Part shown: positions 46,401-48,430 of the stretch, in pieces
How the letters are laid out: every line of letters begins with the position of its first letter
How positions within the stretch are numbered: position 1 is the stretch's first letter
DNA from: Candidatus Methanosphaera massiliense
GTDB lineage: Archaea; Methanobacteriota; Methanobacteria; Methanobacteriales; Methanobacteriaceae
NCBI RefSeq assembly: GCF_028890305.1
Contig: NZ_JARBXM010000001.1
Location: 312,501-376,500 of the forward strand
DNA length: 64,000 bases
Reading direction: 5' to 3'
Made by a program: the position numbers and the translations under genes
Notes under the pieces: generated by a model
Told to the model about the DNA's origin: nothing
Database searches by the model: none
The model's input: only the letters and a program-made list of their open reading frames with translations

Positions 46401-46685
46401 ATGACGAAAAAAGATAATAAATTTAAAGAAATAGGTACAATAAGCCACATAACAAGCACAAACAAAATAATTGTACCGTCAAAACAAACACCACGGATTG
46501 GCACAACGATACTAAACAAAAAACACAAGCCAATAGGTAAACTAAGTGACATCTTCGGATCCACTAAAAAACCATACCTATCAATAAAAACCAGCAAAAA
46601 ATACAGAAAAGCCAAGCCCGGTGAAAAAGTATATTTACCACCAAGAAATAATAAAAGGAGGATGAAACAACGGCAGGCATACTAA
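46401..46685 (+). CDS. gar1: H/ACA ribonucleoprotein subunit Gar1
   Basis: Small subunit of the pseudouridylation guide complex. The reductase/isomerase/EF-type barrel shows [37 protein letters not shown] and KPYLSIKT, all typical of archaeal Gar1, with a basic tail. 94 aa. The start has no good SD, suggesting a short-leader transcript. The 3' end overlaps the ribosome-binding site and presumed start of TFB; the gar1-tfb pair is widespread in archaea. Confidence 0.88.
46657..46661 (+). promoter_or_regulatory. Strong Shine-Dalgarno inside gar1, for the long TFB form
   Basis: AAAAGGAGG ends at 46661, 8 nt before an ACG codon (46670) in the TFB frame. The ATG at 46662 is in the gar1 frame and abuts the SD. 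No internal ATG of the TFB frame (47246, about 47494 and 47515) has a comparable SD. Confidence 0.6.
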
Positions 46686-48430
46686 AAAGAAAAAGAAGAT
46701 ACGGAAGACCTCACAAAACACGAAAATCAGAGAAAAACAAAAAATCATCCAAAAAAGAAACAACTGAGAAACCAACACCCACCACAAAACCAAAAACACA
46801 AACCAAACCAAAAACTAAAAAACGAGGACCGGGAAGACCACCAAAAAGCAAAAAAACCAGTAAGAAAAAAGATGAGGCAATCACAGATACCGAATCTAAA
46901 CATACGACAACAATCCTAGAAAAACAAGAACCACCAAAGAAAAGAGGACCAGGAAGACCACCAAAAAGTAAAAACAAGAAAACACAGGAAAAAGAAGTTA
47001 AACGAGGCCCTGGAAGACCAAGAAAAGAAACAAAAAGAAAACCAGGAAGACCTAAAAAAGAAACAACTGAAACAAAACCTAAACGAAAACCAGGAAGACC
47101 AAGAAAAAATAAGAAAAAAGAAGACGAAACTAAGACAACAACCAAAAGAAAACCAGGAAGACCACCAAAGAACAAAAAAGAAGAGAAATCCAACGACGAT
47201 AAGAAGAAAGAGAAAAACAAGAAACCAAATCCATTACTAGAAATAATGGATAACTTCAAAGACGACAACAACGACACATCATCCGATGACGATACTGAAG
47301 CAGAATTAAACGATTTAATAATCAACAATCCAATGGGAGATAATGTTGATGTTATAATACCTGAAGATTCTGATATAGAACTCATGTCCAATTCTGACCT
47401 AGACGTTGAAGAAATCATCAAGATAGACACAACAGACACTGATGAAATTGAAAAAGAATTAGAAAATAATAATGGACTCAGTGAAAAAGAACAGATGAAA
47501 GAAGACGTTGCAGAGATGGAGAAAAAAGAGACAAAATGTCCAGAGTGTGGTTCAACAAAACTAATCAATGACCATGAACGTGGAGAAGTAGTCTGTGGAG
47601 CCTGTGGTTTAGTAATCGATGATAACATTGTAGACATGGGTCCGGAATGGAGAGCATTCGACCATGAACAGAGAGATAAAAGAACCAGAGTAGGAGCTCC
47701 AATCACATACACAATACACGACAAAGGACTATCAACTATGATAGACTGGCGTAACAAAGATATCTATGGAAGAGATATACCAGCAAGAAACCGTGCACAA
47801 TGGTACAGATTAAGAAAATGGCAACGTAAAATCAGAATCAGTGGTGCAACAGAAAGAAACCTGGCATTTGCATTAAGTGAGTTAGACCGTGACTCATCAA
47901 GATTAGGACTTCCAAGATCAGTACGTGAATCAGCATCAGTTGTATACAGAAATGCTGTGGACAACAAACTTATACGTGGACGTAGTATTGAAGGAGTTGT
48001 AGCTGCATCATTATACGCTGCTTGTCGTAGATGTAAAGTACCAAGAACACTTGATGAAATTGCAGAAGTATCCAGAGTAAGTAAAAAAGAAGTTGGAAGA
48101 ACTTACAGATTCCTAACCAGAGAATTACATATAAGACTACCACCAACATCCCCTATCGACTATGTACCTAGATTTGCTAGTGAACTAAACCTATCAGGTA
48201 TTGTTCAATCTAAAGCAATAGAAATCATTAACCAGGCAATGGAAAATGGTTTAACAAGCGGTAGAGGTCCAACAGGTGTAGCTGCTGCTGCATTATATAT
48301 TGCAAGTGTATTATTAGGTGAAAGAAAAACACAACGTGATGTAGCAGATATTGCAGGAGTAACAGAAGTAACAATCAGAAACAGATACAAAGAGTTAACA
48401 GAACAACTAGATATGGGTGTAAACCTATAA
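46670..48430 (+). CDS. tfb: Transcription initiation factor TFB with N-terminal AT-hook repeats
   Basis: The C-terminal 310 residues are an ordinary TFB: zinc ribbon CPECGST and [10 protein letters not shown]-reader/linker [17 protein letters not shown], and two cyclin-like repeats ending at 48430. The same frame is open, with no stop, back to 46655. The added sequence is basic and holds seven GRP cores (46703, 46832, 46952, 47012, 47045, 47093, 47156), six inside KR-(G/K)-PGRP AT-hook motifs. An acidic stretch of about 95 aa (47246-47530) follows. Total about 586 aa versus about 310 normally. No ATG, GTG or TTG exists in frame before 47246, but a strong SD is 8 nt before ACG at 46670, so that is the proposed start. 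A shorter 394-aa form starting at 47246 is the alternative. Confidence 0.75.

Follow-up and report, generated by a model that had tools for sequence, protein, structure and literature searches.

Archaeal TFB and eukaryotic TFIIB (NF001658, PF08271, PF00382) are built from a zinc ribbon, a linker and two cyclin repeats, and the structures of several TFB relatives have been solved (1ais, 1d3u, 1pft). The tfb gene found in the window, i.e., the whole stretch of 64,000 nucleotides from Candidatus Methanosphaera massiliense that was analyzed here, encodes these parts likewise complete and highly conserved. However, unlike the usual TFB and TFIIB, its product carries a 289-aa hook-plus-acidic tail ahead of the zinc ribbon and, unlike the usual genes for these factors, it lacks a normal start codon. 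The tail resembles a second group of known systems, the AT-hook proteins (PF02178), to which the HMGA type belongs: in both, several GRP cores in a K/R context are joined to an acidic segment. The differences are that the window array has mostly PGRP rather than RGRP and that it is fused to a basal initiation factor. As for the start codon, the closest parallel is bacterial infC, the gene of IF3, with its conserved AUU start. Both infC and tfb have a conserved near-cognate start on the gene of a basal initiation factor, consistent with low or regulated synthesis; the start of tfb, though, is ACG, and its product is archaeal and acts in transcription instead of translation.

The window tfb is an unusual and real feature, whose frame and ACG start stand on strong comparative evidence and whose function is inferred. 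In the reading that we prefer, with a probability of roughly 0.6, the only general TFB of this organism is made as a 586-residue protein started at ACG, and the hook tail tethers it to A/T-rich DNA.

Architecture of the tfb frame

The plus frame is open from position 46655 to the stop codon at 48428–48430 (591 codons) and, counted from the ACG at 46670, its product has 586 residues. The N-terminal part is a basic hook zone of 186 aa (46670–47227, plus strand) with 76 K + R, 22 D + E and seven GRP cores, one of the type KRRYGRP and three each of the types KRGPGRP and KRKPGRP. It is followed by an acidic linker of 103 aa (47228–47536, plus strand; 35 D + E, 8 K + R), in which we recognize a conserved motif of 22 residues (47363–47428, plus strand), a possible protein-binding segment with several invariant columns among 16 Methanosphaera sequences; a variant of it is present also in the paralogue L125. 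The remainder is a complete TFB core (47501–48427, plus strand) with zinc ribbon and two cyclin-fold repeats. NF001658 covers residues 278–585 counted from 46670 with 542 bits (cut-off 384), PF08271 (Zn_Ribbon_TF) matches the zinc ribbon (E = 3e-20, 71.9 bits, cut-off 29), and PF00382 matches the two TFIIB (cyclin) repeats in two stretches (E = 2.1e-48, 162.7 bits, cut-off 23.6). This core is 80–92% identical to the best TFB of other genera in the family or order, and it belongs to the sole TFB match in the 1.79 Mb genome (E up to 0.001). By inference from these matches, it would bind the TBP–DNA complex and recruit RNA polymerase. Frame and domain matches thus confirm that a single frame joins seven GRP hooks, an acidic linker and a complete TFB, as proposed in the preliminary description of this DNA.

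Two variations on the TFB theme were seen elsewhere. In G003, another Methanosphaera genome, there are three extra TFB-like matches (L125, L126 and L127) which have in-frame ATGs, likely their starts, and no ACG behind a strong Shine-Dalgarno (SD) sequence that could be noticed by eye; L125 keeps the acidic motif (LDIEEIIKID) and has no hooks, while the zinc-ribbon pattern was not seen in L127. In G054, from another archaeal family, the TFB (L189:211-2655, plus strand) contains an in-frame intein with LAGLIDADG domains (PF14890, E = 3.3e-22; PF14528, E = 1.1e-13).

The start codon of tfb

No ATG, GTG or TTG occurs in frame from the upstream stop codon to position 47246. What is found in this region is an ACG (46670–46672, plus strand) 8 nt behind the SD sequence AAGGAGG (46655–46661, plus strand), and we propose it as the tfb start, on the grounds of the homologous position across the loci of the class. 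These loci were collected from the best 80 of 118 contig matches and from genomes; 19 pairs that shared the same 3′ 600 nt were each counted once, which left 107 distinct loci. Of these, 102 were assigned to the class from their kinship label, their record title or their position in the tree, and five come from outside. The near-duplicate pairs L102/L111 and L053/L115 are kept within the count of 102, and so is L082, whose record title reads Erysipelotrichaceae; since it groups with Methanobrevibacter TFBs, its contig is probably mis-binned. Locus L106, at a contig edge, and the paralogues L125–L127 were excluded from the start counts.

Across the 102 distinct class loci, 93 have ACG at the homologous start position and nine have ATG, the latter being seven Methanosphaera loci, L083 and L107. 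By rule, 100 of the 102 have ACG (92) or ATG (eight) 7–8 nt after a G-rich SD; L005, with ACG behind a full SD, and L107, with ATG behind a weaker one, fall outside the label rule of the script and were added after being read individually. When 19 junctions were aligned (with the row of L005 misplaced), the first base of the codon was always A and the last always G; the codons neighboring the ACG vary among loci. Clustering at 85% DNA identity gave 29 clusters, 23 with ACG only, five with ATG only and one mixed. On the best tree ACG and ATG are related by three changes, at least two of them by well-supported branches, with L107 uncounted and the bootstrap not settled. As a threonine codon, ACG accounts for 50 of the 2212 Thr codons (about 2%) in 464 kb of the organism's own genome and, in the ACG loci, for 11 of 1196 codons at 14 columns in which TFB has a conserved Thr; at the start position it is present in 92/92 of these loci, which were selected for it, and in 93/102 when all class loci are considered. 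Furthermore, the region from the upstream in-frame stop to the first zinc-ribbon Cys is free of ATG, GTG and TTG in 27 of the 107 loci, every one of which has the ACG. One of these codons does occur somewhere ahead of the zinc ribbon in 75 of the 102 class loci, so that the ACG is not forced there by the absence of a normal start. Four codons downstream of the ACG, 23 of the 92 ACG loci have an ATG. Among the five outgroup TFBs, ACG is absent from L121–L123 and present in L124 and L128, where the SD ahead of it is poor (three and two of its five bases match, respectively).

The spacing was compared with that of normal starts in the genome sample. When the distance from GGAGG to ATG, GTG or TTG was recorded within the first 60 codons, 23 of the 48 spacings of 3–13 nt were 7 or 8 nt, and the 8 nt of the window fall within this commonest class. 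From these statistics we infer pairing with the anti-SD; an exact-pattern search for the 3′ end of the 16S rRNA gave no match. Of 388 long frames in 464 kb, only tfb has an exact GGAGG followed after 5–9 nt by an in-frame ACG within the first 60% of the frame, which lends no support to a frequent use of ACG starts in this genome. RNA folding at the start, calculated for one sequence, revealed nothing beyond chance (z = -0.69; 52 of 200 shuffles as stable).

Overall, the comparison of loci leads us to conclude that tfb starts at ACG, rarely at ATG, across the class. The preliminary description had placed the start of the frame at 46670; its array and frame proved to be real, while it had overlooked that the codon is ACG and that a normal start is missing. 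The literature that we searched, which left most subscription papers outside, contained no description of an ACG start of tfb, nor one of a TFB with AT-hooks, and the earlier statement that no TFB with such a fusion has been described holds within this range.

The junction with gar1

The gene upstream of tfb is gar1, encoding an H/ACA RNP component (46401–46685, plus strand), and its last 16 nt coincide with the beginning of tfb. The product is matched by PF04410 (E = 7.7e-13, 48.5 bits vs. a cut-off of 29.3), and by the best NCBIfam Gar1 model with E = 6.6e-18 but under its cut-off (64.8 vs. 139 bits). This gene precedes tfb in all of the 100 loci examined. TFB paralogues and a Gar1 homologue have been reported beside RPC34 genes, and the accessible part of that report does not mention the gar1–tfb junction (PMC2770514).

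The overlap invites two other explanations of the missing start. According to the first, programmed frameshifting joins gar1 and tfb to give a Gar1-hook-TFB fusion, as could be suspected from the overlap of the frames and from the fact that the tfb frame, lacking a normal start, extends into the 3′ end of gar1. However, the relative frame is +1, +2 or 0 depending on the locus, gar1 overlaps the tfb start in 85 of the 100 loci and ends 1–316 nt before it in the other 15, and ATG substitutes for ACG at the same place. According to the second, the ACG is conserved solely through its reading in gar1 (xxA CGx, Arg) and not as a start, which would fit the 66 of 100 loci showing the exact 16-nt overlap in the +1 frame. 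Yet the ACG persists in 14 loci whose gar1 stops before reaching it and in five more where the overlapping gar1 is in frame +2, and the 27 loci mentioned above offer no other normal start before the zinc ribbon. The variable frame and distance of gar1 exclude a conserved frameshift and make its coding constraint insufficient. Both candidates were therefore rejected: the fusion is very improbable, and conservation through gar1 alone is hardly credible.

The junction also bears on the origin of the tail. In loci of other genera (e.g., L018–L021 and L023–L029) the ACG leads straight into KEKMKxDVSE, or a sequence close to it, and the zinc ribbon. In Methanosphaera the corresponding 11 residues adjoin the zinc ribbon, and SD and ACG are located at the head of the tail. 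This arrangement indicates that the tail of Methanosphaera probably arose by insertion immediately downstream of the start codon.

Downstream ATGs

The first in-frame ATG of the window is at 47246–47248 (plus strand); another, at 47495–47497 (plus strand), is located within EKEQMKEDV and encodes a conserved Met close to the core. Both rank among the earliest normal start codons of the frame, and a short form of TFB could begin at either, the upstream frame being untranslated or only partly used. In favor of such a form, the Met of 47495 is kept in 16/16 Methanosphaera sequences and the upstream frame is broken in one relative (L005). Against it, the upstream region shows purifying selection and conserved hooks (see below), and all 17 Methanosphaera loci have an SD with ACG or ATG where the tail begins. 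In addition, no SD was found in L001 ahead of either ATG, and the Met of 47246 is missing from 3 of the 16 relatives (L007, L012 and L017), which makes this codon an unlikely start. Initiation only at 47246, which was regarded earlier as an argument against the long form, is disfavored on the same grounds. Altogether, we consider it improbable that the short form is the real one, and ATG 47495 is the likeliest start of a possible additional short form produced beside the ACG-started protein.

Distribution and conservation of the tail

Among the genomes searched, the GRP array occurs only in Methanosphaera, a genus of gut methanogens, which answers the earlier question of whether it is confined to this genus. 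The 17 Methanosphaera loci fetched (L001–L017) all have long frames with GRP cores, and the second genome of the window species (G155) has the same frame of 591 codons; two other genomes of the genus (G011 and G013) are fragmentary at tfb. GRP before the TFB core is absent from every non-Methanosphaera locus examined. A survey by frame length covered 151 genomes of the phylum, and in 143 of them a TFB passed the threshold applied. Among the matches listed, none outside the genus had a comparable frame with GRP; the non-genus tfb frames among these matches have at most 428 codons, with the exception of that of G019 (546 codons), whose tail is Lys-rich and without GRP.

The tail frame is intact from the start in 16 of the 17 Methanosphaera loci. 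In L005, the sole exception, it is broken behind the first hook, within an A-rich stretch, and this locus was for that reason excluded from the tail statistics. The loss of frame in close relatives, which the preliminary description had considered adverse to its proposal, was therefore looked for and seen in one locus, not in the other 16. The intact tails have three to seven hooks and a length of 236–339 aa from the start codon to the zinc ribbon. In the hook zone dN/dS is 0.24–0.60 (15 pairs with L001), values that are rough because the synonymous differences are high. The acidic zone is more constrained than the hook zone in 14 of the 15 pairs, several of which have saturated synonymous change, and its dN/dS against L017 is 0.57. 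Besides the linker motif, an 18-residue segment inside the array is conserved too. Judging from these substitution patterns, the tail is under purifying selection.

Long TFB tails without GRP were observed in Methanobrevibacter curvatus (L102/L111), where they are Lys-rich, and in Candidatus Methanoflexus (L103), where a frame of 506 codons has a basic-then-acidic tail. Long charged tails have thus arisen more than once here. The genomes of Methanobrevibacter are likewise A/T-rich (the published G + C content of two of them is 29 and 33%) and yet have no hooks, so that base composition alone is not the reason for the hooks.

Identity of the hook array

The hook zone of the window contains seven GRP cores, compared with a mean of 0.14 and a maximum of three in 5000 shuffles; the array has therefore not arisen by chance. 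No other frame of at least 60 codons with at least two GRP was present in the 464 kb genome sample. A Pfam scan of the window tail with the HMMER filters on gave no family up to E = 10, and none of its hooks has Arg before Gly, six of the seven having Pro and the first Tyr. On the other hand, the homologous array of a sister species (L017) is matched by PF02178 AT_hook in six stretches (E = 1.6e-15), the only one of 16 Methanosphaera tails matched in hmmscan. Single hooks exceed the AT_hook cut-off in 2 of 20 genomes of the genus (G016 and G001), both at tfb, and in none of 14 control genomes. Given the match of the L017 array and the one G001 hook over the cut-off, the motifs of the window are here called "AT-hook-like," being, on the evidence of these sequences, homologous to genuine AT-hooks. 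The AT-hook array of the preliminary description is upheld as to the long N-terminal hook array and the acidic linker, whereas the hooks of the window itself fail the Pfam AT_hook model.

Alternatively, the array could be translated and have a target other than DNA, in which case the basic-acidic disordered tail would bind RNA, cluster TFB or bind proteins. Such a role would agree with the predominance of Pro over Arg before Gly and the failure of the Pfam model in the window, as well as with the GRP-free charged tails of L102 and L103. Nevertheless, the GRP cores with their flanking K/R are kept while the linkers between them diverge, and the L017 array scores as genuine AT-hooks. We regard a target other than DNA as possible, if rather unlikely, and the tail is probably a tether to A/T-rich DNA, as far as can be deduced from its conserved hooks.

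Other candidate near-cognate starts

Frames without a normal start at the expected place were noticed in a few other genes. The first, at L139:10114-10818 (minus strand) and L151–L170, is presumably queE (7-carboxy-7-deazaguanine synthase-like). In Methanosphaera, 17 of its 20 loci have no ATG, GTG or TTG before the conserved EIFSSIQGEG motif; the start in most such loci is likely ATT or ATC, and in L165 it is likely an ACG located 8 nt after GGAGG. The second, at L145:7223-8830 (minus strand) and L171–L188, is a gene that we take to encode a radical SAM protein (TKSLCPECLKILDAEV...). Here a normal start near the N-terminus is missing from 8 of 18 loci, most of which likely use ATA or ATT behind G-rich sites, and the remaining loci have ATG, GTG or TTG candidates, e.g., ATG in L177. 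Within the window, the frame at 30076–32922 (plus strand) encodes an adhesin-like protein with a signal-peptide-like stretch, IKRNNLTFKKLFPVLVIIALLVCISAVSA, that is devoid of ATG, GTG and TTG. This protein likely starts at ATT 30082 behind AGAGGTGA; its listed start, GTG 30262, cuts off the signal-peptide-like stretch. Finally, a frame which we assume to be ATP-grasp-like (L134:4425-5534, minus strand) lacks a normal start within the first 62 codons and possibly begins at ATT.

Discussion

If the tail is indeed a tether, the hook array would lie in the minor groove of A/T-rich DNA and hold TFB near promoters, the flexible tail keeping the factor in place while the core would work as usual with TBP and polymerase. 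The acidic linker would provide reach, or compete with DNA for the hooks, and the conserved linker motif may bind a partner. As to the start codon, ACG initiation, helped by the strong SD, would keep TFB synthesis low compared with that of gar1 on the same mRNA. That the ACG limits TFB synthesis is probable, in our view. ACG starts are expected to be weak, and the strong SD of tfb may compensate for this weakness. Suboptimal starts have been found to tend toward the acquisition of stronger SD sites in a study that reconstructed rare switches to CUG and AUU and that does not use the term ACG in its main text (Belinky et al., PMC5622118). Archaeal aIF1 has been reported to destabilize complexes formed on non-AUG mRNA (PMC6237735). 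The expected weakness of the ACG, the possible compensation by the SD and the effect of aIF1 make a low, fidelity-dependent dosage of TFB plausible.

A broader and distinctly speculative proposal is that the ACG kept throughout the class is a control device, which would set the TFB dosage and tie it to the strictness with which initiation factors such as aIF1 reject non-AUG codons, so that transcription capacity would follow the state of translation. Methanosphaera would then have extended the device to a small set of genes with other near-cognate starts (AUU, AUC and AUA in queE and the radical SAM enzyme) and added the AT-hook tether. We offer it tentatively, with the odds against it.

Histone-fold matches (PF00808) number 10 in the window genome, 2–13 in the genus and 2–5 in the other genomes searched from the family, order and class. 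The idea that the hooks replace lost histones was rejected on the basis of these numbers, since Methanosphaera has 2–13 matches vs. 2–5 in the other genomes. Hook and histone numbers do not rise together either (three hooks and 13 histone matches in G008, seven and three in G016), and any link between them is speculation.

If the ACG start is true, gene finders limited to ATG, GTG and TTG miss the true start of tfb and even lose the zinc ribbon in 27 of the 107 loci, and the fidelity of start-codon selection in Archaea would become testable in a natural, conserved gene. If the preferred reading as a whole is true, a basal factor with a built-in hook array would represent a new way of targeting archaeal transcription to A/T-rich DNA.
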